From Naumovozyma dairenensis CBS 421 (Eukaryota; Ascomycota; Saccharomycetes; Saccharomycetales; Saccharomycetaceae), in assembly GCF_000227115.2 (NCBI RefSeq), contig NC_016480.1, positions 310,001-374,000 on the forward strand: a stretch of 64,000 nt of DNA. The letters are read 5' to 3'. Position 1 is the first letter of the stretch. Every line of letters starts with the position of its first letter. Shown here piece by piece: positions 31,596 through 63,538 of the stretch. A model generated the notes under the pieces. The model searched no databases, was not told where the DNA came from, and saw nothing but the letters and a program-made list of their open reading frames with translations. The position numbers and the translations under genes are program-made.

Positions 31596-32771
31596 TTAGA
31601 CTATGACAGTACCGGGATCTATTACAGGAGATTGTAAATTCGTTGGTTCATAACAATACCATTTCAAAAGAGCATCCGTAGCAGCTCTTGCCTTTGCTTC
31701 TTTTAAAGATGATCCATATCCTTCACCTAATTTTTCCTTATCAGAGAAGACACCAACAATGAAAACAGGAGCCTTGGATGCTCTACCAGATTCAGCTAAT
31801 AACTTTGATATAGGTCTTTCAAGCCCTTCACGTTCACATAATTTACTTAACTCTCTCGTTGGTTGTTCGAACATAAATAATTTAGAAACATCAAGTTTCC
31901 TACTTATAATATGATCATCAATAAACTTAAAGGCCAGATTCTTCTTAATTTGTTGTTGTTCCGCCATTTGATCACTTTCAATCCACAGAGACCCAATTAT
32001 ACTTCTCACCGCTAAAGACATGGCCTTCACTTGATTGAATTTCTTTTTCCAAGAGACAATTTCAATACCGTCATTATAATTTAATGAATTATTGTAGAAT
32101 CTTAATTTACCCAAAGTGATTTCGAATGGTTCATTTTGTAAATATCTTTCCATAACAGTTTGCTTTTCAATATCAATCCCCCATTGAGATCCAATTGATG
32201 ATAATACATAATCTGATATGTATGAATCAATTGCGGCGTTTAATATTACGGTAGGTAACCTTGGATATTTTTCTAATAATTTTTTCGTCACGTAGTAACT
32301 TAGGATATTCTTCCCGAAAATATTTAAACCATGATTATCGCAATAATCCTTCGAGAATGTAACTGTCTTTGGTGAAGTAGATGAAGGGAGCGTAGGTAAT
32401 TGAGATGATCTACATGTAAGACATCTTGATAAAGTTGAATATTTGAATGATTCAGGTAGTTGCAATCTGCTATGTAGAGTAATTAGAAGTGGGGATTTGG
32501 ATGCTATTTCCTCTGGTATTTCATTTATTGTTAATGATTTCAAATTTCGATAGTATTCTTTATATTTAGCAAATTCTGAATCCTTTAATCTTGGTGATGT
32601 GGATGATGAGGAATATGATGCTTGTCGTGTCAGAGCCAATAAAGTTCTGTTATTGCATGACTGAGAGACGTTAACAATATTATTGGATGATGATAAAAGT
32701 GAAATTGAAGCGGAGGGACCAGCCCTTGTCAACGGTTGAATCAGCAGCCTACAATTTGAGCGTAGGGACAT
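31596..32771 (-). CDS. MRPL3: Mrpl3, mitochondrial large ribosomal subunit protein (mL44)
   Basis: Mitochondrial ribosomal protein with an inactive RNase III-like domain and a C-terminal double-stranded RNA-binding domain. The first 45 or so residues are Ser/Arg/Leu-rich with few acids, as for a mitochondrial presequence. The RNase III-like part covers about residues 140-290 ([21 protein letters not shown] ... IGSLWIES) and the dsRBD ends with [24 protein letters not shown]. The upstream TTG at 32834 is rejected; the ATG at 32771 gives 391 aa, nearly the S. cerevisiae length (390). Confidence 0.94.
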
Positions 32772-33815: not shown

Positions 33816-33888
33816 GGGCGTGTGGCGTAGTTGGTAGCGCGCTCCCTTAGCATGGGAGAGGTCTTGGGTTCGATTCCCAACTCGTCCA
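33816..33888 (+). tRNA. tA(AGC): tRNA-Ala (AGC), copy 1
   Basis: A 73-base intronless gene. The anticodon stem CTCCC/GGGAG encloses TTAGCAT, giving anticodon AGC (read as IGC). The acceptor stem carries the G3-T70 wobble pair that defines alanine identity, plus the T6-T67 mismatch also known from yeast tRNA-Ala. The A box (TGGCGTAGTTGG) and B box (GGTTCGATTCC) are intact, and T6 (33890-33895) directly follows as a Pol III terminator. From memory, S. cerevisiae also has a tRNA-Ala(AGC) between MSS1 and MRPL3, so one of the two copies here is probably ancestral. Confidence 0.98.
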
Positions 33889-34188: not shown

Positions 34189-37100
34189 CTATTATATATT
34201 TTTGTCGAACATGAAAAGAATGTTGGTGAAATCAAGTTCATTCAGTCAGACTTATCAATCCTTCATCAATATCATCAAGTTAAACCACAATTCATGGAAG
34301 CCACTTGTGACTTGTTCTTGGGGATCTATTCTTCTGTCAGGTGCAATTATCATCATCGTCCATACCTCAATTCATTCTCGAACCAAGGTTACGGTGAACT
34401 GTTCCCAAAGGATCTTCAACTTCCAACCATACAAAAATATTCTGGTTTAGATGCTGCTTTTATTTATTTAATTGAAGTTTTCCCTCAGTTATCGTTAGCT
34501 CAAGATATTGACTCTGCCGAACTAACTAACCCTCCAAAGTCAGTTGATTCTATGGCTAGTTGGTTTACCAAAAAATTGTTACCTGGTTCTTCACCTTCAA
34601 TATGGTTTTTATTGTTGAGAGTCTGCTGTTACAATTGATAAGACAAAGACACATCAGTCTTTGTCTTATCCAGCTCTTCATAAGTTGAATGGATATCGTC
34701 AATTTGTTGACTCCATTAGGGCTTTGGCTACTTATTCTGTTTTATATAGATACCTTAATCATGGTGCTATTGCAGGTGATTCAAAGGCTGATGAAATTTC
34801 TTTACTAATGTTAGTGAACCTTGGAATTGGACCAAGAATATGTACCACAAATTGGCAACTGCTTATCAAGATTATACCAAATTCAACGTCAAGGTCTGTA
34901 AACCTGATGCTGTGTTGATCTCTGGTAAAAAATTCTCCAGATCTTACATTCAGGAATTTTATGCCAATGTTGTTGCCAGATATGATGGTTGTATTGAAGA
35001 GTTACTTTGCTGACGTCTGGTCCGTAGAAGCTATTGCTGAGTCTGTTCTTAAATTCTGGTCCCAATTCCAATCTTACTGAGAGAAGTGTTGTTCCTAAGA
35101 GTTCATTGTTCTTTTTATTCGACCATGCAATATTAACCCAAGTTCCTCATCTCGAATCAGGTGTTATTATTGAAGCTGATGTCATCACAAAAATCGTATC
35201 TGACATGGGAGTGTGTGCTATGTGGATGGTTTATTTTTTTGCTACTAGTCCCTACAGATTTCCCGATGTGTTGATTTTGAAATATGCTGGTAATAACAGA
35301 AATTTGTTCATTGACCCAAACTCTCGTTGCTTTATTTCTTATTTGAAAACTAGATGTGCCAACTTAATGTGCAAGAGTTTAGATAAGAAGACCTCTGATT
35401 ATTTGTTCCATTATATTTTTGTCGTTAGGGCTATTCTTAAACATTCGCTTGGTCAAGATTATGATGGCATGAAGAGGGATTTCTTCAACGAGACTGAAGG
35501 GGAACCTGCCAGTTATCTGTTGAACAATTTCTTAGCAAGATCAGCTGGTGGTGGTGATTCAGAAGATGATTTTGATCCTGTTAAATATTCCAGTAATGTT
35601 TTGAATTCTTTTGTGTTCGTTGATGGTCTGTCTCATACGTTGATGCATTATCATAAATTCCAATCGTTGTTGAAGGTGTACCCAATGTCTGTTCATAGGT
35701 CTTCGAGGTTGTCTTTTAGAGAGTTGAGACATGGAATGATCAAGCTAGTTCGTAAATATGTTAAAGTTGAAGGTGAAGATATAGATATGATGAACGTAAA
35801 AGAGAGACTAGCTGGTCATTCTGCTGCAACTGGTCAAGGTATCTACGGTAACGATGTTGAGAGTGGTGTTGGTGCAGATGCGTCGTTGGAGGAGAAATAC
35901 GCTTCCTTAATCAATAGTGCCTGGCAGAATTGGTTAGGGCTTGGTTATGGCAAAGAAAGGGAAGAAGGTGGGTCTGCTGTAGCTAGGAATGCATGTGTCA
36001 AGAAATACTTTTCATCAAATGGTTCTATCAAGGATTTGTTTGTTGCCGGTAAGAAGTTGTATGGTAAGGAATTTCAATTCAGAGAAGGTCAATTTGATGT
36101 TGCTGTGGAAATTTATTTATCAGGCACTCAGATCATCCCTATTCAAGCTCTTCCAGGTTTTGGGAAAACTGCTCTGTTTCAGATCCCTTTGGTTGCATTA
36201 TCTTATGGTGAACAAAAAACTGTTTCATTTGTGTTTGTCCCTTATGTTTGTTTGTTATCGAATATAAAGTTGAGGTTGTCTTCATGTGGTATCAACTGTG
36301 GTATTTTGAAGGATTTGTTTGTTAATGGTCCAGCTATTGAAGAGAAGAATTTGTTTTGTGATGTTTACGTTGGCACCTTTAACGATTTAGGTTCTGAGAA
36401 TTTTGTCCGGTTGGTCAATAACTGGTACAATATATATCAAGATTGTATTCTAGGTATGATTGTCATTGATGAGTTTCACAACTTAGAGACTGAACAATCG
36501 TACCGTGGACAATCTTTTAGATTGATTCCTGAGATTAACTTTAATCTTGCTTGGAAGGTGGTGGTGATGACAGGTACTGCTGGTGAAAAGGGTATGGTCA
36601 AACCTATGAAATTTATTGGCTATGACAAGGAGATGTGTACGTCGATGGTGTCCAATAAGAACAGAATTTTGTACTTTGACCTGGTTAAACAAATTCCTCT
36701 CAAGAATATTGTGAAGAAGTTCCAAGTTTTTGAAAGATCTACTGTGGCAGAGACTGAGGTGGAAAAGTTGGTTGATAGATTTATGGAGTATGATACTAAG
36801 TCCAAGGTGAACATTGTTTGTATACAGAAGGTGACGGTGGAGAAGCTGATTTCAGACATGAATATGACTGGGTTCGATGGGGATTTACCATCTGAGGAGA
36901 AGATTAGAAAGTCAAAAAGATTTATTGAGGATGAGAAATGCAGAATAATGATTGGTACAAAATTGGTTTCAGAGGGTATTGATATCAAAGCAGTTAAGTT
37001 GGTGATAATGCATGATTACCTTCCATCAATTTGGGAGTATATCCAGACAGCGGGTAGGTTACGTGAAGGTGGGGTATGTCTTTCCTATTGGACCAAGAGA

Positions 37101-38614
37101 AGCGTTCAAACTTGTTCGGTGAAACCAGATGTTTGCATTATTAAACAGGTATCCAAATTTTATGAACTGAATTATGACGGTCATGATTTATGTTGTGGCC
37201 ATCATCATAATATTTCAGAAGCTGTTGCTAATTTGTATCATTATTTGAATGGTGATGGTCGTCCAAGAGTTGTGGAAGTGGATGCTAGTATTGGTGATTC
37301 TGAACATGTTGGTAATGTTCCTTCATTTTCTTCTGCTAATGAGTCTTCTATATTTGAGGATTTGCGTCCAGATATGGATCAATCTGAAAATTTTATTGCT
37401 TCTAATGATAGTAGTTTTCCAGGTTTGAGTAATGAGGTAGATATGCTTGATAATTTGGAAAAGAGTACTCGTGGATTGGTGAATGAGGATAGTACGAATG
37501 ATGGTAATAATAGTGATGAGGTATTACCTGCCCCAAGAATTGTCCTTTTACCTTTTGATCATGGTCCTAATAAAAGAAGAAGAATAATATCCATGAAAGA
37601 TGAGATTAATAATCTCTTTGGTTCTGCTAAGAATGTTTTTGAATTTATTGGAATTCCATCCAAACTTTGTTCACAATTTATTTTTTATGGTTTGAACGAA
37701 AGTTGTTTGGATTTCCCCTTGTCTGTTGTTGATAATCCTTGTCCTGATTGTCTTGGTGCTAAAGATGGTGGATGTGTCTGCTGGGAACTTGGTCCTGCTA
37801 AGGTGAGAAGATTTGGGTTTGAGTTTATTTTGTTGTTGAAGATGATCATGTCAGAAAAAGAATTTGATGGTGTGAGGAAGCATTGCCTCGATAGGGGCCT
37901 CCATGCTGTCATGTTGAAATATGGTGGTTCGAAGTCTCTTTTATTTGATAAATTCAAAACTAGTGCTCTAGCCAAATTTTGTGAAATTATTGTTAGCAAA
38001 CCTAAGTTACCGGTGTCTGGTGAGTTGTTTAGTAATGATATGGTCATGACAAGGTGTTATAATATGATGTGGGAGGACATTCAAGGTCGGAAGTTAGATA
38101 TATTGATGTTTTTCTCGGTGAAGGATTGTAGGGATCAAATGAAGGGTCTTTGGGAAGCTGATAATGGTGATGATTTGGCCTTCAAAGATATAGAAGCTGA
38201 TGTTAAGAGAGCAAGTACCACAAGGTATCAGAGTTTACCATTTATTATTAATTTTGGTGGTAGACCTAATTATTTGGTGAGTACTTGTGGGTATGTCTTT
38301 GAAGAGTATATGATTCTTTATTCCATTGATAAAGATTTTAAGTCTAGGTCTTTGTATGATTCTCGTGACGTTCTAGGAAACCACCCAAAGTGAAGGTGCC
38401 AGCATACCAATATATTATGATGACGCTTGCTGTGTTCCATAACCGTGATTTCTTAGGTTACTTTTACAAGAAGTTTCCATCATTGCCTAGAGTCAAATGT
38501 TTTAGTCACTGGCGGAAGTTGATGACGTTGTCAGTTCAGTTTCCCAATGATCAAGGAAGAAGGCTGTATTTGATTGTAGGAGCTATGTATTATTTATTTG
38601 TTAAAGGAAATTAG
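34189..38614 (+). pseudogene. Y'-element (Yrf1-type) helicase, interstitial, 5'-truncated and frameshifted
   Basis: Relative of the subtelomeric Y' helicases. The longest intact frame (35034-38393, about 1100 aa) has Walker A LPGFGKT (residues 373-379 counted from 35034), DEFH box (479-482), motif V GTKLVSEGID (641-650), motif VI QTAGRLREGG (671-680) and a Cys cluster CPDCLGAKDGGCVCWELG near residue 905. Upstream helicase-family sequence such as FRELRHGMIKLVRK and NWLGLGYG is also like Yrf1. Coding-quality sequence begins at 34189 without a usable ATG and jumps frames at least four times before 35080 (frames 1, 2, 1, 2, 3). A final one-base shift near 38380-38392 moves to the frame ending at 38614, which continues the family C-terminus. 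Could be a decayed copy, or a collapsed-repeat consensus with indel errors. Codons are G/T-richer than neighbouring genes. Confidence 0.88.
34637..34670. repeat. Perfect 14-bp inverted repeat with 6-base loop
   Basis: GATAAGACAAAGAC, loop ACATCA, then GTCTTTGTCTTATC. It falls exactly where the reading frame of the helicase remnant changes from frame 1 to frame 2. Confidence 0.97.
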
Positions 38615-39672
38615 TATTGTTTTGTTTTATTTGATGTAGTCATATAATGTGTATACATATTATCCCTCAATTTAGCCGCCCAACCCCCACGAAGAATATA
38701 TAGAGATATTCGTTAATGGAGGTGTATAAGTGCAACATTGGAATATGTTGTTCCACTGTCATGCTTAGAGTGTCTTAACACATGCACTCTCAATAAGGCT
38801 ATAATCAACCTCTATTCATATATGTTTGGGAGGTGGCATATACCGCATATTTCCCTGCCTGGACGAACGGTCCATTGCTTCTCCCTTCTACTGGACGAGA
38901 AAGTAATCAATCATTAAAAACAAATACTCCTGGGAGAGAAATGATCCGCCTTTATATAGGTGACCGCTGCAATATGTAACAATTTTTTATATAACGCGTC
39001 ATAGGAAAAATTTGGGGAAATTCGGGAAATTTTCGCGTCATGGAATGTGGTGTCTGGGTGTGTGTGAGACTTTACGTAGTTGAAGTTATCATCAAATTAA
39101 AACACTATGTACGTACATTGTGAAATAGAATAATCAAACATTGAAGTACGTACGTTGAATTCGTTTAGTTCTCGTTGATAGTGTTAGTCTTTAAAATATA
39201 ATTGGTAACACCTTTCCCAAGTGTTCTTACTAGATATTTATATGAAACTGTAAATACTTGTACGCTCGATTAGGGGGAGCTAATTGAGAACAATTGAGAA
39301 CATCCAACAACTTCCTCGACCCATTACATAATTCATATACACATTACCAGCCGAAACCGTAGACGTGGCTGCATTCAAAACAAACTGAATAATAATAATA
39401 TAATATTTATATGACATTCAACATAGCTCAACAAAAGATATTCAATCAGAGCTCACAGCCGTTATGCAGCTACAAACATGTACGGTGCATAACGTAGTTC
39501 GAGTCATTATTTCGAACCTTACAACTTTATAATAGTTTAGAACTCATTGACTGCTTTCATGATAGTAATTACTCACATATTAATAAAATAAAACATACTT
39601 CTCTGTGACTTCTTGGCGTGACGGTGCTACTTGGTTGTCTACATCATTTATCTTAGAAAAAAATAAAAATAT
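38615..39672. other. Non-coding region 3' of the Yrf1-like remnant, up to tRNA-Ala copy 2
   Basis: About 1.06 kb with no supported gene. Contains short inverted words (TGGAA...TTCCA near 38740; AGAGTG...CACTCT near 38767-38790), the telomere/Rap1-like word listed separately, two GTACGTAC words about 40 bases apart near 39109 and 39148, and a TAATAATAATA run near 39390. Could be the distal part of a Y'-like element plus junction; inference only. Confidence 0.5.
39049..39061 (+). promoter_or_regulatory. Telomere-repeat / Rap1-site-like word
   Basis: GGTGTCTGGGTGT, embedded in a 21-base G/T stretch (39046-39066). It contains TCTGGGTG, the telomeric octamer reported for Naumovozyma castellii, and matches a Rap1-binding core. 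It sits about 430 bases 3' of the Yrf1-like remnant with the G-rich strand in the same direction as the gene, as at a Y'-telomere junction. One word could also be a plain Rap1 site or chance. Confidence 0.5.
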
Positions 39673-39745
39673 GGGCGTGTGGCGTAGTTGGTAGCGCGCT
39701 CCCTTAGCATGGGAGAGGTCTTGGGTTCGATTCCCAACTCGTCCA
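39673..39745 (+). tRNA. tA(AGC): tRNA-Ala (AGC), copy 2
   Basis: All 73 bases are identical to copy 1 at 33816, in the same orientation, 5857 bases downstream. Flanking bases differ on both sides, so only the tRNA itself is shared. A T8 run at 39752-39759 serves as Pol III terminator. Both copies look functional. Confidence 0.98.
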
Positions 39746-39817
39746 GATTTATTTTTTTTCAACCGTTATCTTTTGAAACCTTCGAGATGCAAGAAGTACG
39801 CAGTTGTCACGATTTTG

Positions 39818-40654
39818 TGATATATTACCTCGCGATAATATATAAACCGCACTCTTATTTAACAGCCGACTATAAGTCAACTTACCCTGCACCTTGATCC
39901 TTTATAAAAAAATTATAGACGTCTATGATATGAAATCTTTTACGTCTGTTATGACCAGTTTGGGTGAAGTTGTGTCCTTATTATCTTGATTACCTTGATA
40001 ATGAGTTAGGAATCTGGTGTGTCTTATCTTTGATATTTCTACTTTTGAGAAATTTGAAGATAACGAATGCAATATCTACTATTCTATTATCTCTGTATCC
40101 AATATAAGCTCAATAGTTAGATCTATACCGGCAGATAATTATTACCAGTATCAAAACTTATATCTTGTAGCTCTTAAAATATACGTACACTAAGCTCGAT
40201 GAATAGCAGATAATTATCAATCCTATGGATGTGTATTACTGTCTATCGGTGAGTAGTATGAGTAGTATGTTTATCGATGAGTATGTCTATCGATGAGTAT
40301 GTTCCTTTCGGTGATGTGATGATCCTTTCGGTGAGGATCTGATGCGATGTTATGTGATGTAATGTTATGTGATGAGATATTATGTGATGGGATATAATAT
40401 TCTCTTCTTTCTATGATCTAGGTTCCTAGGGATCTAGTTGTATATTTTCTTTTCTTCTCTTCTATAAACGAGTATCAAGATAACTTCAGATTCAAATTTT
40501 CCATTTCAATGTCTCTATATATATATATGGTATTCGCTGAAACTCATCGAACCCATTCAGAAAGCGATGCCATGGAAAATTTTCACTCGTTCACTTCGTT
40601 GGTCACCTTCGAGAAACGCGCCACGGAAAAGGCCAAATAGCCTAGAACGTGACA
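39818..40654 (+). repeat. Direct repeat copy A (MSS1-upstream segment)
   Basis: An 837-base segment matching 41972-42811 with roughly ten small differences (for example GTTATGACC against GGTTAATGAACC, CTTAAAATA against CTTATAATA). It contains GTGATG/GTTATG-type short repeats and TATCGATGAGTATG twice, and ends GAACGTGACA. In copy B the same end lies 100 bases before the MSS1 start, so copy A is an extra copy of that upstream region without the gene. Confidence 0.95.
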
Positions 40655-41227
40655 TGCCCCTCTCTTAATTTCAAATTAGTTTTCATCAAACTAATTTGAC
40701 ACTAAGACCCTCAGTCCCTCTCTTAAATCCATCCCAGCTTTGGTCAGACTAAGATGTCATTAAGTTATCTCGGAGTTTCCTTTACCTTAAAAACTAGCTT
40801 TGGTCAAGCTGCTTTAAGACTAAGATCTGTTCCTCGAATATTATTTTTCATTCGCGTGTCTTTTATGTTGCCCTTAATTTCTACTCCCACTGAGTTGTTC
40901 TGCATCTCCGGAAGATGTCCCTGTATTTTATGCAAAGTGCTAATTACTTCACTTGCATATAGCGTATTGATTACTGACGTCCTAAGTGTAGCATCCTAAT
41001 AGTTTATCTGTAGGCTATAATCGTCATATTAAGAATGCGACCTACTATTTCTATTGTTTAATATATTCCCTCTATCATTTCCGAGTCGAATTTATTTGTC
41101 TGTTCCACTTAAGTTACCTATTTCTCATTATGTATTTTATTAACCTCCAGACACAATGCGGCTGATATGACTACTTATTTTTTTTTTAAGAAAAATTGGT
41201 ATCTACCGAACTATTCGTCTTTCGTCA
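40655..41227. other. Unique sequence between the two direct repeats, up to the assembly gap
   Basis: 573 bases without a supported gene. CCCTCTCTTAA occurs twice (about 40658 and 40714), and AGCTTTGGTCA...ACTAAGAT occurs twice (about 40735 and 40797). A perfect palindrome lies at 40673. An 81-codon open frame at 40754-40999 has no recognisable similarity. Could be part of a mobile element whose remainder is in the gap. Confidence 0.6.
40673..40697. repeat. Perfect 10-bp inverted repeat, 5-base loop
   Basis: AAATTAGTTT, loop TCATC, AAACTAATTT. It begins 18 bases after the end of repeat copy A. Confidence 0.97.
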
Positions 41228-41971
41228 NNNNNNNNNNNNNNNNNNNNNNNNNNNNNNNNNNNNNNNNNNNNNNNNNNNNNNNNNNNNNNNNNNNNNNNNN
41301 NNNNNNNNNNNNNNNNNNNNNNNNNNNNNNNNNNNNNNNNNNNNNNNNNNNNNNNNNNNNNNNNNNNNNNNNNNNNNNNNNNNNNNNNNNNNNNNNNNNN
41401 NNNNNNNNNNNNNNNNNNNNNNNNNNNNNNNNNNNNNNNNNNNNNNNNNNNNNNNNNNNNNNNNNNNNNNNNNNNNNNNNNNNNNNNNNNNNNNNNNNNN
41501 NNNNNNNNNNNNNNNNNNNNNNNNNNNNNNNNNNNNNNNNNNNNNNNNNNNNNNNNNNNNNNNNNNNNNNNNNNNNNNNNNNNNNNNNNNNNNNNNNNNN
41601 NNNNNNNNNNNNNNNNNNNNNNNNNNNNNNNNNNNNNNNNNNNNNNNNNNNNNNNNNNNNNNNNNNNNNNNNNNNNNNNNNNNNNNNNNNNNNNNNNNNN
41701 NNNNNNNNNNNNNNNNNNNNNNNNNNNNNNNNNNNNNNNNNNNNNNNNNNNNNNNNNNNNNNNNNNNNNNNNNNNNNNNNNNNNNNNNNNNNNNNNNNNN
41801 NNNNNNNNNNNNNNNNNNNNNNNNNNNNNNNNNNNNNNNNNNNNNNNNNNNNNNNNNNNNNNNNNNNNNNNNNNNNNNNNNNNNNNNNNNNNNNNNNNNN
41901 NNNNNNNNNNNNNNNNNNNNNNNNNNNNNNNNNNNNNNNNNNNNNNNNNNNNNNNNNNNNNNNNNNNNNNN
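41228..41971. other. Assembly gap (744 N)
   Basis: Run of N. The right contig begins at the first base of the shared repeat (TGATATATT), as expected when an assembler breaks at a repeat edge. The upstream boundary of repeat copy B, and possibly a third tRNA or a mobile element, may be hidden here. The true gap size is unknown. Confidence 0.99.
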
Positions 41972-42811
41972 TGATATATTACCTCGCGATAATATATAAA
42001 CCGCACTCTTATTTAACAGCCGACTATAAGTCAACTTACCCTGCACCTTGATCCTTTATAAAAAAATTATAGACGTCTATGATATGAAATCTTTTACGTC
42101 TGGTTAATGAACCAGTTTGGGTGAAGTTGTGTCCTTATTATCTTGATTACCTTGATAATGAGTTACGAATCTGGTGTGTCTTATCTCTGATATTTCTACT
42201 TTTGAGAAATTAGAAGATAACGAATGCAATATCTACTATTCTATTATCTCTGTATCCAATATAAGCTCAATAGTTAGATCTATACCGGCAGATAATTATT
42301 ACCAGTATCAAAACTTATATCTTGTAGCTCTTATAATATACGTACACTAAGCTCGATGAATAGCAGATAATTATCAATCCTATGGATGTGTATTACTGTC
42401 TATCGGTGAGTAGTATGAGTAGTATGTTTATCGATGAGTATGTCTATCGATGAGTATGTTCCCTTCGGTGATGTGATGATCCTTTCGGTGAGGATCTGAT
42501 GCGATGTTATGTGATGTAATGTTATGTGATGAGATATTATGTGATGGGATATAATATTCTCTTCTTTCTATGATCTAGGTTCCTAGGGATCTAGTTGTAT
42601 GTTTTCTTTTCTTCTCTTCTATAAATGAGCATCAAGATAACTTCAGATTCAAATTTCCCATTTCAATGTCTCTATATATATATATGGTATTCGCTGAAAC
42701 TCATCGAACCCATTCAGAAAGCGATGCCATGGAAAATTTTCACTCGTTCACTTCGTTGGTCACCTTCGAGAAACGCGCCACGGAAAAGGCCAAATAGCCT
42801 AGAACGTGACA
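41972..42811 (+). repeat. Direct repeat copy B, leading into the MSS1 promoter
   Basis: 840-base partner of copy A (39818-40654), in the same orientation. Its left edge coincides with the gap, so the true start of homology is unknown. It ends 99 bases before the MSS1 ATG and so probably carries the native MSS1 promoter, including a TATATATATATA word near 42673. Open frames inside it (such as 42625-42837) are not kept in copy A and are unlikely to code. Confidence 0.95.
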
Positions 42812-42910
42812 GCAGTGAATTATTTTTAAGATATTAGTTAATCTTATCATTGCTTGGCAAATGCAAAGTCGATGTAATAGTATATATATTGTTCTTTCTG
42901 CATCACCAAG

Positions 42911-44458
42911 ATGTTCAATCGTAACACTTCCGCAATACTAAATAATATTTGCTATTATTCCACACGAAGCATTACAGAAGGGTTCCCTACAATATATGCT
43001 TTGTCAACACCTCCAGGACAAAGATCAGCAATTGCCATAATAAGAATCTCCGGACAACAGTCATTACATGTATACCAATCAATAACTGGGAATTTATCCA
43101 TACCGAAACCTAGAACCGCCATCTTGAAAAACATCTATGAACCTTCATCGCTATTGGCAAATTCTAAGAAGAAGAAAAATTTGATCGATTCTTCTTTGTT
43201 TCTATATTTCCAATCTCCGAATTCATTCACTGGTGAAAACCTTCTCGAAATACATTGTCATGGGGGTAAGGCTGTTACTTCGGCCATTTTAAAGTCTATT
43301 CAATCTTTAAATGATCCTCAAAGAGGTGTGGAAATACGATATGCGGGGCCCGGTGAATTCTCAAGGAGAGCATTTCAAAATAATAAATTCGATTTGACTG
43401 AGTTGGAAAGTATTAATCAATTAATTGAAGCAGAGACTGAAATTCAAAGGAAGTGTATCATATCGAGTTTTACTGGTGAGAATAATTTGAAATTTGAAAT
43501 TTGGAGGCAAGATTTGATTAAATGTGTCGCCAATTTGACTGCTATCATTGATTTTGGTGAAGATATTGAAATGAGTGATGTAGATTCTTTAGTTAACAAA
43601 GTTAAAGCGGAAATTACTCAAATCAAAGTACAGATAGAATCATTCTTGAATAGATTGAAAAAATCGCGTATTTTGAAAGATGGGATAAAGATTAGTTTGA
43701 TAGGTAAACCTAACGCCGGGAAGTCCTCTTTGGTAAACTGTTTAACTAGTAATGAAACGTCGATTGTAAGTGATATTCCAGGAACTACCCGTGATGTTGT
43801 AGATAGTTATCTTGACATTGATGGTTATAAAGTCATATTGACTGACACTGCAGGAATACGACAAAACTCAACGGATATCATCGAGAAAATGGGCATTGCA
43901 AAGGCTCTGAAAAGTATTAAATCCAGTGATGTTTCACTATTAATAATAGATATATCAGAGGAAAAAGAAGAAGAAGAAGAAGAAATTACAAATGCAATAA
44001 ATAACTTAATCGAACTAAGCGAAGCAGAAGATAAGAGATCAATGATCATTTTGAACAAAAAGGATTTAGTAAACGATGAAGACAAGATGGAAAATATTAC
44101 AGAAAGGTTAACTAAAAGCTTTGGTACGAAATATCCAATAGTACCGGTTTCCTGTATTACGGGGGATGGGATCAAAGACTTGACGGACATGTTAACAAAA
44201 GAATTCAAAACATTATCTGAGGATCTTGATGAGTCAAGTCCAATTCTTATGTCCCAAAGGGTAACAGATATATTACAAAATGACGTTTTGTTCGGCATTG
44301 AATCTTTTATTAATTCAGTAGCAAATGAAAAAGATATAGTAATGGCTACTGAAGACTTAAACGTGGCAATTGACGGTATTGGGAAAATCACTGGACAAGC
44401 CGTTGGAGTTGATGAAATCTTAGACTTTGTATTTTCGAAGTTTTGTGTTGGTAAGTAA
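42911..44458 (+). CDS. MSS1: Mss1, mitochondrial tRNA-modifying GTPase (MnmE family)
   Basis: With Mto1, installs the 5-carboxymethylaminomethyl group on wobble uridines of mitochondrial tRNAs. The 515 aa protein (526 in S. cerevisiae) begins with a presequence-like stretch, then the MnmE N-terminal folate-binding domain (IYALSTPPGQRSAIAIIRISG ... HGGKAVTSAIL ... GPGEFSRRAF). The G domain follows: P-loop GKPNAGKS at 265-272, SDIPGTTRDVVD, DTAG at 312-315, and NKKD. The terminus is FCVGK, carrying the essential C-terminal Cys. Start at the ATG at 42911. Convergent with DCW1. Confidence 0.95.
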   Translation: MFNRNTSAILNNICYYSTRSITEGFPTIYALSTPPGQRSAIAIIRISGQQSLHVYQSITGNLSIPKPRTAILKNIYEPSSLLANSKKKKNLIDSSLFLYFQSPNSFTGENLLEIHCHGGKAVTSAILKSIQSLNDPQRGVEIRYAGPGEFSRRAFQNNKFDLTELESINQLIEAETEIQRKCIISSFTGENNLKFEIWRQDLIKCVANLTAIIDFGEDIEMSDVDSLVNKVKAEITQIKVQIESFLNRLKKSRILKDGIKISLIGKPNAGKSSLVNCLTSNETSIVSDIPGTTRDVVDSYLDIDGYKVILTDTAGIRQNSTDIIEKMGIAKALKSIKSSDVSLLIIDISEEKEEEEEEITNAINNLIELSEAEDKRSMIILNKKDLVNDEDKMENITERLTKSFGTKYPIVPVSCITGDGIKDLTDMLTKEFKTLSEDLDESSPILMSQRVTDILQNDVLFGIESFINSVANEKDIVMATEDLNVAIDGIGKITGQAVGVDEILDFVFSKFCVGK

Positions 44459-44642: not shown

Positions 44643-45986
44643 TCATAGAATAATCCAGATGGAAGTAAATACTATTGATAATCCAATGGCCGCCGTTATA
44701 AATGCAGCTCCAACCTTAGACCCTTTCGTTATATGCAATGGAGCTAGATTTGTCGGGGTAGCTTCGGTACCTGCTGCACCGTCACCAATAGAAGAACCTC
44801 CATTCGTTGAATTATAAGGAGCTGGTCTATCTAATACCCTAGTATTTACAAGAACATCTAATGCAGACATCTGTTCGCCGAGACCATAATATCCATCCCA
44901 ACCATTATCGAACCAATTGAGTCCGCATGTATGACCATCCGTTCCTCCCGAACACGAATGAGCAACTGCAATAGCTGATGTATTCAACCAATTCATAATT
45001 CTTGATTGCGTTATCGTTACCAACTGGGCGGTTAGTCCAAGAAACCTCGCCAGGTATGATTTGAAAGATCTTTGATCGTTATTACATGTTCCAGTGGGTT
45101 GACATGCAACTTCGTACATGATGCTATTATTAAAGAAAACGCTTGTTGCATCTAATAAATCCATTGTTCTATTTAACCAAATTGTCGAACCAGTAAAATT
45201 ATATAAATAGGCAGCTCCTGCTAACATAAGTCCTTGGTTATAAGACCATTGATACGAAGTTATTGTAGTACAGTTTGTTTCTATACTTGTTCCGTCATAA
45301 ACGTACTTTTGGGTTCCATTAGATATTAGGCCAACATCGGACATCCAATCATAGGTTTTCTCAGCCCAGTCCACATAACTTTGGTTACCAGTATATCTTG
45401 CTAACCTAGCTGCCAGATGGAACAATGCACCATTTGAAACAGAATTCTTGTAATCATAGCCTGAATTCCAAACGAAGATTTGCCATCTTAAGCCACCGCC
45501 ACAATTTTGTGCATCCCATCTTAATGCCATAGTATTAAAGACGGCTTGAGCCAAATATAACCACTGAGGGCTACTCTCAGGAGGATTTGTAAAATTCCTT
45601 TCAGCAGCCGTCATTGCAGCAATACCCCAAAATGCTTGATCGTCATTCCCCTCAGTAGTGGATTGATTCAATGGGATATAATCATTATTTTCACCAGTTT
45701 GATGTAATAATGCAGACATTATTAAATCATTATATGTATCATTTTCCATGAAAAACCAATAATCTAACATGGTACCCCATGCACCACCTGCTTCCCACCA
45801 ATAATATGGATTTGAAAACATTCCTACTGTTTGACCATATTGATCCCCATTATAATAATCCATAAGACCGTAGGCTACTAATGCAGTATCATTTTCTAGT
45901 GATTGGTAATTGTTCAAATCTAAAGATAACGCATTGGCTCTGTGAGTGAAGGTAAGAAGGAACAAAATATTAAAGACTCTCTTCAT
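44643..45986 (-). CDS. DCW1: Dcw1/Dfg5-type GPI-anchored GH76 mannosidase-like wall protein
   Basis: GH76 family protein thought to help transfer GPI-anchored mannoproteins onto cell-wall glucan. The ATG at 45986 gives 447 aa, matching Dcw1 (449); a longer frame reaches a TTG at 46043 and would add a hydrophilic lead before the signal peptide. The N-terminus is a signal peptide (MKRVFNILFLLTFTHRANA). The body has the catalytic Asp pair in EGNDDQAFWG and many N-glycosylation sites. The C-terminus has a small-residue stretch and hydrophobic tail (AAFITAAIGLSIVFTSIWIIL) fitting GPI attachment. DCW1 (YKL046C) is favoured over DFG5 by neighbourhood, although the strand relative to other chromosome XI genes here differs, implying a local inversion. 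Confidence 0.88.
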   Translation of the reverse strand: MKRVFNILFLLTFTHRANALSLDLNNYQSLENDTALVAYGLMDYYNGDQYGQTVGMFSNPYYWWEAGGAWGTMLDYWFFMENDTYNDLIMSALLHQTGENNDYIPLNQSTTEGNDDQAFWGIAAMTAAERNFTNPPESSPQWLYLAQAVFNTMALRWDAQNCGGGLRWQIFVWNSGYDYKNSVSNGALFHLAARLARYTGNQSYVDWAEKTYDWMSDVGLISNGTQKYVYDGTSIETNCTTITSYQWSYNQGLMLAGAAYLYNFTGSTIWLNRTMDLLDATSVFFNNSIMYEVACQPTGTCNNDQRSFKSYLARFLGLTAQLVTITQSRIMNWLNTSAIAVAHSCSGGTDGHTCGLNWFDNGWDGYYGLGEQMSALDVLVNTRVLDRPAPYNSTNGGSSIGDGAAGTEATPTNLAPLHITKGSKVGAAFITAAIGLSIVFTSIWIIL

Positions 45987-61053: not shown

Positions 61054-63538
61054 TTTTTCTCTCTCTTTTTTTCCGCCACCAGCTTATTGTTTCTCACAAA
61101 TAACAATACTAGTATAATTCACTAATTATCAATATTCTTTTTGAGACCTTTGCAAATGATTTTGGATAAGAGTTCTTGAAGTCATTAAACATATTTCTTC
61201 AAATTTTCCAGAATAATTTTTTTTTCATCTGGGGTTTGCGATGAGGAGGCATGGGTGTTGTTCTGCAAGATATTTCAAAAGACAAGAAATATATATTTTA
61301 TAATAATGATATTATAATAGCTAATAATTAATAGACAGACATTAGTAAGTTGTCAGCTTTGAGGGCTCGAAAGACCATAAGATTATAATAAATGTATTGC
61401 AAATATGATTGCTGCATAGTTTATTTTTACCAGGATAGTCCCATTTGACTGTAGCTACCAACTAACTTGTTCTTACTTTTTTCAAGTAATATATGAGGGT
61501 ACATCAAACTTATTACAGTATTGTTTCTACGGTAAAGAATACTATCAAGTTCATAATAGAGTATGGTCTATATCTTTATTTAGTGATGCACTGAATAGAT
61601 GACAACCACGATGCTAGGCCAGCATGCATCATGCAGAGTATATGCTATTTTTTCTTTCTGTAGTCTATTGTCAAACGACATCTTTCAACAATACCATAAT
61701 TTACTAAGAGCTGCAAGCTCTTTCACATGGTTAAAAATACAAGAATTTCTTCGATGTGAGTCAAGTACCTAACCTGCTTTCAAGTGTAAAATATTACCAA
61801 GTATTAAAAATCAGACTGACATGCAAATCGTTTTATTTTTTTGAGTCTCATCTTCATCAAATAAAAAATTTTCAAGAAGAAATAGCTCAATTGTCATCAT
61901 ATTTGAATACAAAATTTTACACAAGACAAGAAGACTCAAGTTCAAAAAAAAAGCATGATAAAAAGCAAAAATCCTGAATATTACCAGTAAAAGAAAAAGA
62001 AAAAGAAAAAAGGAAGGAAAACAAATAATAACATTAAAAAAATTACTCATTGAACAATAATCATAATAATATCAGAGCCACGCCCTGTCACAGGCAATTT
62101 ATCATCAACGTTCCAAAATAAACAAATTAAGGAACACAGTTGACCGTCGTGATATAAGTGGAAATCATCATAAACAAAAACTGAATTAAAGTTCAACGTA
62201 AAATTTTATTATTAGTAATATTCATATTCATATTTTCTTTTCCATTATATTAACCTTAATATAATCAATCACAATAGTAATAATCAATCTTTTTTCTTTG
62301 TAAAGGCATCAGACACATATTTGCTCTTATCAATTCATTAAAAATAAATTCTCAGACATATGCTTGTCTATATTGAGTAAATTGTTTCATCTTCTGCAAA
62401 ATTTTTATCGAATCTTATCGACTGATAAGAAGTTCGTTTCTTTTGTATTTACTATTTTCCTTTCCTTTCCTTTTCTTTTTGAAAAGTAATCAAAAATTCA
62501 GAATTGCATGAATGGTAAAAAAATAGTTTTGTCTTCACAATTTGATCAGACTCGTCATCTAAAAGGTATCATCATAATGAGAGCAAAAAAAAGGAAAACG
62601 AAAGGAAACACAAAAATAGGACCCCTTACAACAACAATAATAATCATAACAAAAAAACAAAAAACAAAAAACACAATAAATAATTTTTTTAAATGATGAA
62701 TCTGTTGCGTGGGTTTTCTAGGCCCACATAAAAGCATTGTCACTCATGAAAGGAAAAAATATTATTTATTTTTATTCAGTGCCCAGTGCTGTGTATCTTC
62801 ATCTTCATCAAAAAAAATGAAAAAAATTATTGACGCGTGCCACAATTCAATAAAATAAAAAAGTTGAATGCAAAACAACTGTTTCAATCCAATTCATCTT
62901 TTTTTCCACATAGAGTGAGATAGAATGTCAAAAGGTACAGTCAATTTTTTTTAAAAAATCAGAAGTAGTGCAAAAACGTATCAACATGTACTCGTTCAGC
63001 CAGTAATTCCAGCTTTTGTTTTCGTTGAATCATCATATAAAAAAGACTGACCTAAAGACATTTATTTGCGACGACAAATTAAAAAATAAGCAATAAAGAA
63101 AAAAGTTATAGGAATACGACTATATTCCACTCTTTGAAACACACTCACATAACAATAATAATGAAATGACAAATAAATCCTCAGTGATTAAGATCAAAAG
63201 TTCTAATCAATATTAAAATTCAGAAACTCTAGTTTGTATATATTTTGATATGGTCATCAACGGAGATTAAATGTCCATCGCTATTGTAATATATAGCAGC
63301 AGTTTGTGTTCAAAGCGTATGTGTATAATTTCTTTCTCTTGTCATTTTTTTGTCGTTGTCTCACTCTAACATAACCACTTGGATATACATGTTTTCCTGT
63401 TACAACCTAAGTTAAATTAAATAGTATTAAGACAATGATGAAAGTAACAATAATAGTTCAAACATCCAGCTGCTTTATATAGTTTGTCACTTACTTGTCA
63501 GAGGTATTGTTGGTTTTCCACCTAACCGTTCATTTTGG
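61054..63538. other. Very long intergenic region between BUD22 and the right-edge gene
   Basis: About 2.5 kb without a supported gene, unusually long for this compact window. AT-rich with AAAGA-type repeats near 61985-62010 and polypyrimidine stretches. No tRNA B box, no snoRNA C/D boxes that could be defended, and open frames (61756-61977, 62508-62696) are Lys/Thr-biased and unrecognised. SEC59, next in S. cerevisiae order, is not seen. Confidence 0.5.
61238..61245 (+). promoter_or_regulatory. PAC motif upstream of BUD22
   Basis: GCGATGAG, about 185 bases upstream of the BUD22 ATG. A nearby AAATTTTCC (61201-61209) is one mismatch from the RRPE core. PAC plus RRPE is the standard promoter pair of yeast ribosome biogenesis genes (bound by Dot6/Tod6 and Stb3), fitting BUD22 function. 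A Rap1-like ACACCCATGCC (minus strand, about 61247-61257) lies beside it. Confidence 0.6.

Follow-up and report, generated by a model that had tools for sequence, protein, structure and literature searches.

We analyzed a 64,000-nucleotide stretch of the genome of Naumovozyma dairenensis CBS 421 (hereafter the window; C2:310001-374000, in an assembly of 13.5 Mb and 11 contigs), which contains a relic of a helicase gene of the Y' family. We consider it about two-thirds probable that this relic is a Y'-family element, now decayed, that reached the region between MRPL3 and MSS1, beside tRNA-Ala genes, by DNA-level copying from a chromosome end, and that the family protein carries a likely tyrosine recombinase. 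The full family protein would then consist of an N-terminal Sir1-type domain binding the origin recognition complex (ORC), which the copy in the window has lost, a second domain, most likely a tyrosine recombinase, and a superfamily 2 (SF2) helicase. Coordinates without a contig prefix are window positions throughout, and those of the features are given in Table 1.

A tyrosine-recombinase-like domain upstream of the helicase

Upstream of the helicase, the proteins of the family share a conserved domain with the residues of tyrosine recombinases (R-K-RxxR-H-(9)-Y), and all six are complete in 24 of the 35 alignment rows. The catalytic residues that define the superfamily (R, K, the R of the HxxR box, H and Y) are present in this order, with the His of HxxR replaced by Arg; topoisomerase IB likewise lacks this His. 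When 91 candidate chains were compared by structural alignment with VIA-align, the best three were two tyrosine recombinases and topoisomerase IB. A pattern for recombinases, devised once the motif had been noticed, matched 8 of 22 proteins versus 2 of 11000 shuffles, and the same after-the-fact pattern with D allowed for E matched 13 of 22 versus 6 of 11000. Among the known recombinases P0022-P0024, the pattern recognized XerD and FimB, and did not recognize lambda Int. Residue conservation and structural modelling point to a tyrosine recombinase as the most likely identity of the domain. It is not mentioned in a first-pass annotation of the window, which had been made from the sequence alone.

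Terminal copies of one subfamily, subfamily B, were found at C2R (C2:1542178-1545843) and C3L (C3:628-4281), with intact open reading frames (ORFs) of ~1216 residues from the first ATG. Both retain all six recombinase residues, and their Walker A motif and DEAH box are destroyed. Compared with the full-length relative P0003, subfamily B is most similar in the recombinase-like part (41% identity), followed by the N-terminal and middle parts (26-30%) and the two helicase halves (20-23%). C2R and C3L share 98% identity both in the recombinase-like part and in the second helicase half, and 85% in the first. The pairwise ratio of nonsynonymous to synonymous substitution rates (dN/dS) in the recombinase-like part was 0.13-0.23 (7 of 36 pairs within limits), the value of 0.20 for C2R-C3L being based on few changes. 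In the helicase, pairs of non-B copies had values of 0.05-0.50 and the pair C2R-C3L had 0.26; seven B-to-other pairs, in which dS was high, had 0.56-1.00. Such a pattern of sequence conservation would be expected if the recombinase-like part, and not the helicase ATPase, were indispensable in subfamily B.

Support for a recombinase from sequence profiles and fold comparison is below significance. No match to PF00589 was found with Pfam, Foldseek matches of the domain were non-significant, and the best row of a search in a viral library was an integrase at E 1.5, which is not significant. The hhalign comparison was weak: its score was reached by 3 of 200 shuffles, and a smaller set performed no better than controls. 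The model has low confidence in the stretch from H to Y, and the second helicase half is as similar between C2R and C3L as the recombinase part is. Among other searches, profiles built from recombinase pieces returned five proteins, all of them relatives; a profile search of the PDB gave a single irrelevant row; and a fold search with the whole protein P0005 had only helicases and related ATPases among the 50 best matches listed.

The domain could have the fold of a tyrosine recombinase without its activity, binding DNA or pairing proteins as Ndc10 and Gcr1 do, with Y' elements moving by homologous recombination alone. The accessible part of PMC3212892 describes yeast genes that derive from Cryptons and have not kept the catalytic site, and the accessible text of a 2026 Y' survey (PMC13177704) describes Y' recombination with the word "recombinase" absent, as it is from that of PMC5499181. 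However, all six positions, tyrosine included, are kept in the 24 rows mentioned above and in the subfamily without helicase motifs, and we consider this explanation unlikely. A little less likely again is a coincidence, in which a helicase with unknown N-terminal parts would show the residue pattern and a weak structural match by chance. The lack of a Pfam match and the Foldseek and hhalign results are in line with it, but the order, spacing and invariance of the residues, the helix positions and the top three VIA-align entries are all concordant, and the after-the-fact pattern was far rarer in shuffles than in the proteins.

The decayed copy and its relatives

The copy in the window lies 345 kb inside a 1.55-Mb contig, away from any chromosome end, and is a displaced, decayed member of the Y' family, not a subtelomeric Y'. 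Its longest blastn matches to terminal and internal copies have 78.9-89.6% identity. Where these reach the edges, they end at 34200-34207 on the 5' side and at 38763-38769 on the 3' side, where the similarity fades gradually in the alignment with no sharp stop. Homology begins at residue ~158 of P0003, the 5' end having been lost, and tblastn revealed at least four frame changes across the coding region, to about 38769. Because of this truncation and these frame changes, we regard the copy as a pseudogene with a long surviving frame. This frame spans 1121 codons from stop to stop (1062 residues counted from the ATG at 35205) and preserves both the recombinase-like and the helicase parts. The first-pass annotation had placed a gene at 34189-38614; the open frame is real, but it belongs to a truncated relic with frame breaks, one of many internal copies. 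In the 3' flank, TTAGCCGCCCA at 38672-38682, which we take to be similar to the Ume6 site URS1, is common to the window copy, C9L, C2:1012k and C2R, with a near-match in C3L and C8.

Assignment to the Y'-type helicases, also made in that annotation, is borne out by Pfam and by protein searches. Pfam identified DEAD (1.2e-10) and Helicase_C (1.8e-13) in the open frame, and all the helicase motifs previously quoted are located there (Walker A K at 36165-36167, DEFHN from 36468, GTKLVSEGID from 36954, and the R of GRLREGG at 37056). The structural model of the relative P0005 matched RecQ-type helicases over residues 463-700. The proposed protein search of the long frame returned no unrelated helicase class: the closest proteins were from the same species (P0002, NDAI_0I00100, at 87%, then P0004 and P0005), and the remaining relatives had 28-54% identity and, where their source was named, all came from Saccharomycetaceae. 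Named Y'-type relatives were found in Naumovozyma, Huiozyma, Lachancea, Torulaspora and one S. cerevisiae strain. The frame encodes a Y'-type SF2 helicase related along its length to Y'-type proteins, as expected of the Y' (YRF1) family. No record named YRF1 was returned by protein searches with family members; an approximate YRF1 sequence used as query was 31% identical to the window frame and 45% identical to P0014, in the latter case across about 1200 residues.

Two relatives have altered catalytic residues. In P0002 (C9:2517-6380), otherwise a long terminal copy, the Walker A lysine is changed to glutamate. In P0006 (AKH_1a_G0042850, labelled S. cerevisiae), the H and Y of the six recombinase residues are lost; this protein is 40% identical to the window frame and only ~30% to the approximate Yrf1, and may stem from a second Y'-like lineage of the strain or from a transfer.

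A six-frame search of the genome gave 42 matches, the weakest of which we read as other helicases. Whether the other copies are terminal or beside tRNA genes, as had been asked, has a mixed answer. Relatives were found at seven contig ends (C2R, C3L, C3R, C4R, C5R, C9L and C11L), all reading outward, with N-terminal fragments additionally at C4L, C6L and C9R (tblastn). They also occupy about ten internal places: C1:66k, C1:172k, C2:107k, the window, C2:447-452k, C2:1008-1016k, C3:461k (a match of 36 residues only), C7:667k, C8:952k and C11:299k. Nine of these, all but C3:461k, were fetched together with between a few hundred bases and a few kb of flanking sequence. A tRNA gene was present in the fetched stretch at two of the nine, the window and C2:447-452k (tRNA-His within 60 bp of the fragment); none was found in the other seven, nor in the terminal stretches that were checked. 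The stretch C2:1008243-1015754 carries two elements in head-to-tail order, first one of subfamily B (the type of C2R and C3L) and then one of subfamily A; the same B-A junction recurs at C2:448951-450279 with about 91% identity. At C2:105835-112477, two Y' copies, ~99% identical to C3R, point at each other with their 3' ends over a gap of 20 N; the C2 scaffold probably joins two chromosome ends in error there.

Arrival between MRPL3 and MSS1

Ty1-type machinery could have reverse-transcribed Y' RNA and placed the complementary DNA (cDNA) beside a tRNA gene, a mobilisation suggested in the first-pass annotation. The window copy is truncated at its 5' end and lies between tRNA-Ala genes with long terminal repeats (LTRs) nearby, and according to work cited in the accessible part of PMC7175516, Ty1 particles of S. 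cerevisiae package Y' RNA. However, at the junctions we found neither the Ty or poly(A) sequence nor the 5-bp duplication that would mark a Ty1-mobilised Y' cDNA. The nearest LTR-like repeat begins about 475 bp beyond the 3' end, no poly(A) was seen at the 3' edge in the alignment, and the only shared sequences at the two edges were 6-base AT matches, although the unsharp 3' edge could hide a small target duplication. The absence of tRNA genes from seven of the nine fetched places also speaks against this route, and the tandem arrays of two subfamilies at two internal places fit copying of chromosome-end DNA better than single Ty1 cDNAs. Overall we regard it as quite improbable. We also considered the 3' end of a single mRNA as a sign of retro-copying, since the copies in the window and at C8:952k stop near the same place, and rejected it given the fading similarity and the lack of poly(A). 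Targeting of tRNA genes by the recombinase, attractive given the tRNA-Ala gene on either side of the copy, was likewise rejected: the edges of the copy are 312 bp and about 0.9 kb from the tRNA-Ala genes, no terminal tRNA was found, and we counted against it the other genomic matches to tRNA-Ala, nine of which reach 91% (the second gene at the locus included).

An ancient telomere fusion or translocation, the other origin previously suggested, is very improbable and is not needed. In its favour are the Y' arrays at other internal places and a telomere-like GTGTCTGGGTGTG at 39050-39062, in a stretch (GTGGTGTCTGGGTGTGTGTG at 39047-39066) oriented as a right-hand chromosome end. But the genome has seven occurrences of GTGTCTGGGTGTG (one of the backward control), the motif resembles a Rap1 site, and the conserved flanking genes argue against a fusion, both flanks fitting one ancestral gene block.

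A wrong scaffold join, also raised earlier as a possibility, is scarcely credible. There is a 744-N gap on the MSS1 side, and other Y' copies sit at the doubtful 20-N join at C2:109150-109169, but the sequence from MRPL3 to 41227 has no N, and no other fetched copy exceeds about 90% identity to the one in the window. Furthermore, an 840-bp direct repeat with 98.5% identity lies on both sides of the gap. These are the LTRs of a retrotransposon, starting with TGTCAC at 39805 and ending with GTGACA at 40654 and 42811, with GCAGT directly outside both outer ends. Since one insertion with one target duplication spans the gap, the MSS1 side is joined correctly. At least 11 further near-full copies of this LTR are found elsewhere in the genome. 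A 294-residue ORF at 41167-42051 is an artefact, because the 744 N lie inside it.

For the window copy we favour DNA-level routes among recombinase-driven insertion, capture at a break beside the tRNA genes, and Ty; the recombinase reading is better supported than the route of arrival. A Y' recombinase would nick and rejoin DNA through a covalent tyrosine intermediate, whereby Y' DNA could be excised, circularised, integrated or exchanged between ends. The helicase would open the DNA, and the ORC-binding part would bind chromosome ends rich in origins or silencers. Internal relics would then be stray DNA-level insertions from this Y' traffic, or repair captures of Y' DNA.

The location between MRPL3 and MSS1 is confirmed by domain and PDB matches, and ARAGORN and Rfam confirm the tRNA-Ala genes on each side, which share an identical 73-nt stretch as a direct repeat. 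To the left of the copy lie MRPL3, an unassigned 303-residue ORF and PEX12-like, ARMT1-like and TAP42 genes; to the right, MSS1 and genes for a GH76 enzyme, a ubiquitin-conjugating enzyme, an amine oxidase and a Zn-cluster factor. We take this to be the order of YMR028W-YMR019W on S. cerevisiae chromosome XIII, where MSS1 and MRPL3 are neighbours, except for the GH76 gene and the missing MAC1; a literature search for the names gave no confirmation. We take the Y' DNA to have entered an old MRPL3-MSS1 intergenic region. The GH76 gene (44643-45986) lies between MSS1 and a UBC7-like gene, a place where MAC1 was not seen and where S. cerevisiae presumably has no GH76 gene. Rfam also identified five small nucleolar RNAs (snR73, 75, 76, 77 and 78) at 62070-63264.

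Table 1. Features of the Y'-family relic and its surroundings, in window positions.
Feature	Position	Strand	Basis
Tyrosine-recombinase-like catalytic domain	35166..35888	+	Residue conservation, model, structural alignment; limits inferred
Putative catalytic residues	R 35256-35258, K 35346-35348, R 35718-35720, R 35727-35729, H 35817-35819, Y 35844-35846	+	
Y'-family homologous segment, 5'-truncated relic	34201..38769	+	blastn against terminal and internal copies
N-terminal coding part, broken over changing frames	34201..35050	+	tblastn with P0003, P0002, P0004
Long open frame: recombinase-like domain, helicase, most of C-terminal part	35028..38393	+	ORF and Pfam
SF2 helicase core (DEAD to Helicase_C)	36102..37061	+	Pfam
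C-terminal protein end, different frame	38369..38614	+	91% identity to P0002 C-terminus
MRPL3 (mitochondrial ribosomal protein mL44), left flank	31596..32771	-	PDB match 5.8e-134 to yeast 54S ribosomal protein L3; dsrm and RM44 domains
tRNA-Ala(AGC), first copy	33816..33888	+	ARAGORN; Rfam 60.8 bits
Old dispersed repeat, read as solo LTR, just upstream of second tRNA-Ala	39244..39623		At least 40 other genomic matches, 72-81%
tRNA-Ala(AGC), second copy	39672..39746	+	ARAGORN; Rfam
LTR of Ty-like retrotransposon (TGTCAC...GTGACA)	39805..40654	+	Target duplication GCAGT 39800-39804
Assembly gap, 744 N, within retrotransposon	41228..41971		N run
Second LTR, same insertion, start within gap	41972..42811	+	98.5% to first LTR; target duplication GCAGT 42812-42816
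MSS1 (MnmE-type GTPase), right flank	42911..44458	+	MnmE_helical, TrmE_N

Y' elements and known recombinase systems

A broader proposal, for which we see an even chance, is that Y' elements are mobile elements with a tyrosine recombinase of their own. This enzyme, joined in one protein with an ORC-binding module and a helicase and retained even where the helicase is dead, would move them from end to end and now and then into chromosome arms. With its catalytic set intact, such a recombinase would give Y' elements a reason to exist, namely their own movement, and its catalytic tyrosine would offer a single residue to mutate. The accessible part of PMC13177704 reports that growth of an engineered strain was unaffected by removal of all Y' copies. 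If the proposal is true, a tyrosine-recombinase element would be added to Saccharomycotina, ORC/Sir1 biology would be tied to a mobile element, and the internal relics would be a fossil record of the landing places of Y' DNA. In open-licence literature, we found no paper with both "tyrosine recombinase" and "YRF1", and none stating that Y' encodes a recombinase.

Cryptons, which are fungal transposons with a tyrosine recombinase, resemble, as described in the accessible text of PMC3212892, the proposed element in the idea of a eukaryotic DNA element with its own tyrosine recombinase. Unlike CryptonF elements, 16 family members had no GCR1_C domain found by Pfam at E 10. According to the same text, by Kojima and Jurka, no Crypton insertion was found in Saccharomycotina, and the word "helicase" is absent from it; the accessible part of PMC7175516 treats Cryptons and Y' separately. 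With XerA, XerD and the integron integrase, the domain has in common the order R, K, R, H, Y, the spacing from H to Y, the helix positions and the best VIA-align entries; it differs from these tyrosine recombinases in having no significant profile or Foldseek match, in RxxR replacing HxxR, and in its fusion to a helicase. The Y'/YRF1 system (Y'-Help) of S. cerevisiae shares the long protein plan with an SF2 helicase, and the terminal copies of N. dairenensis likewise read toward the end. Unlike it, the window copy is internal, truncated and broken, and N. dairenensis has several diverged subfamilies, one of them with destroyed helicase motifs.
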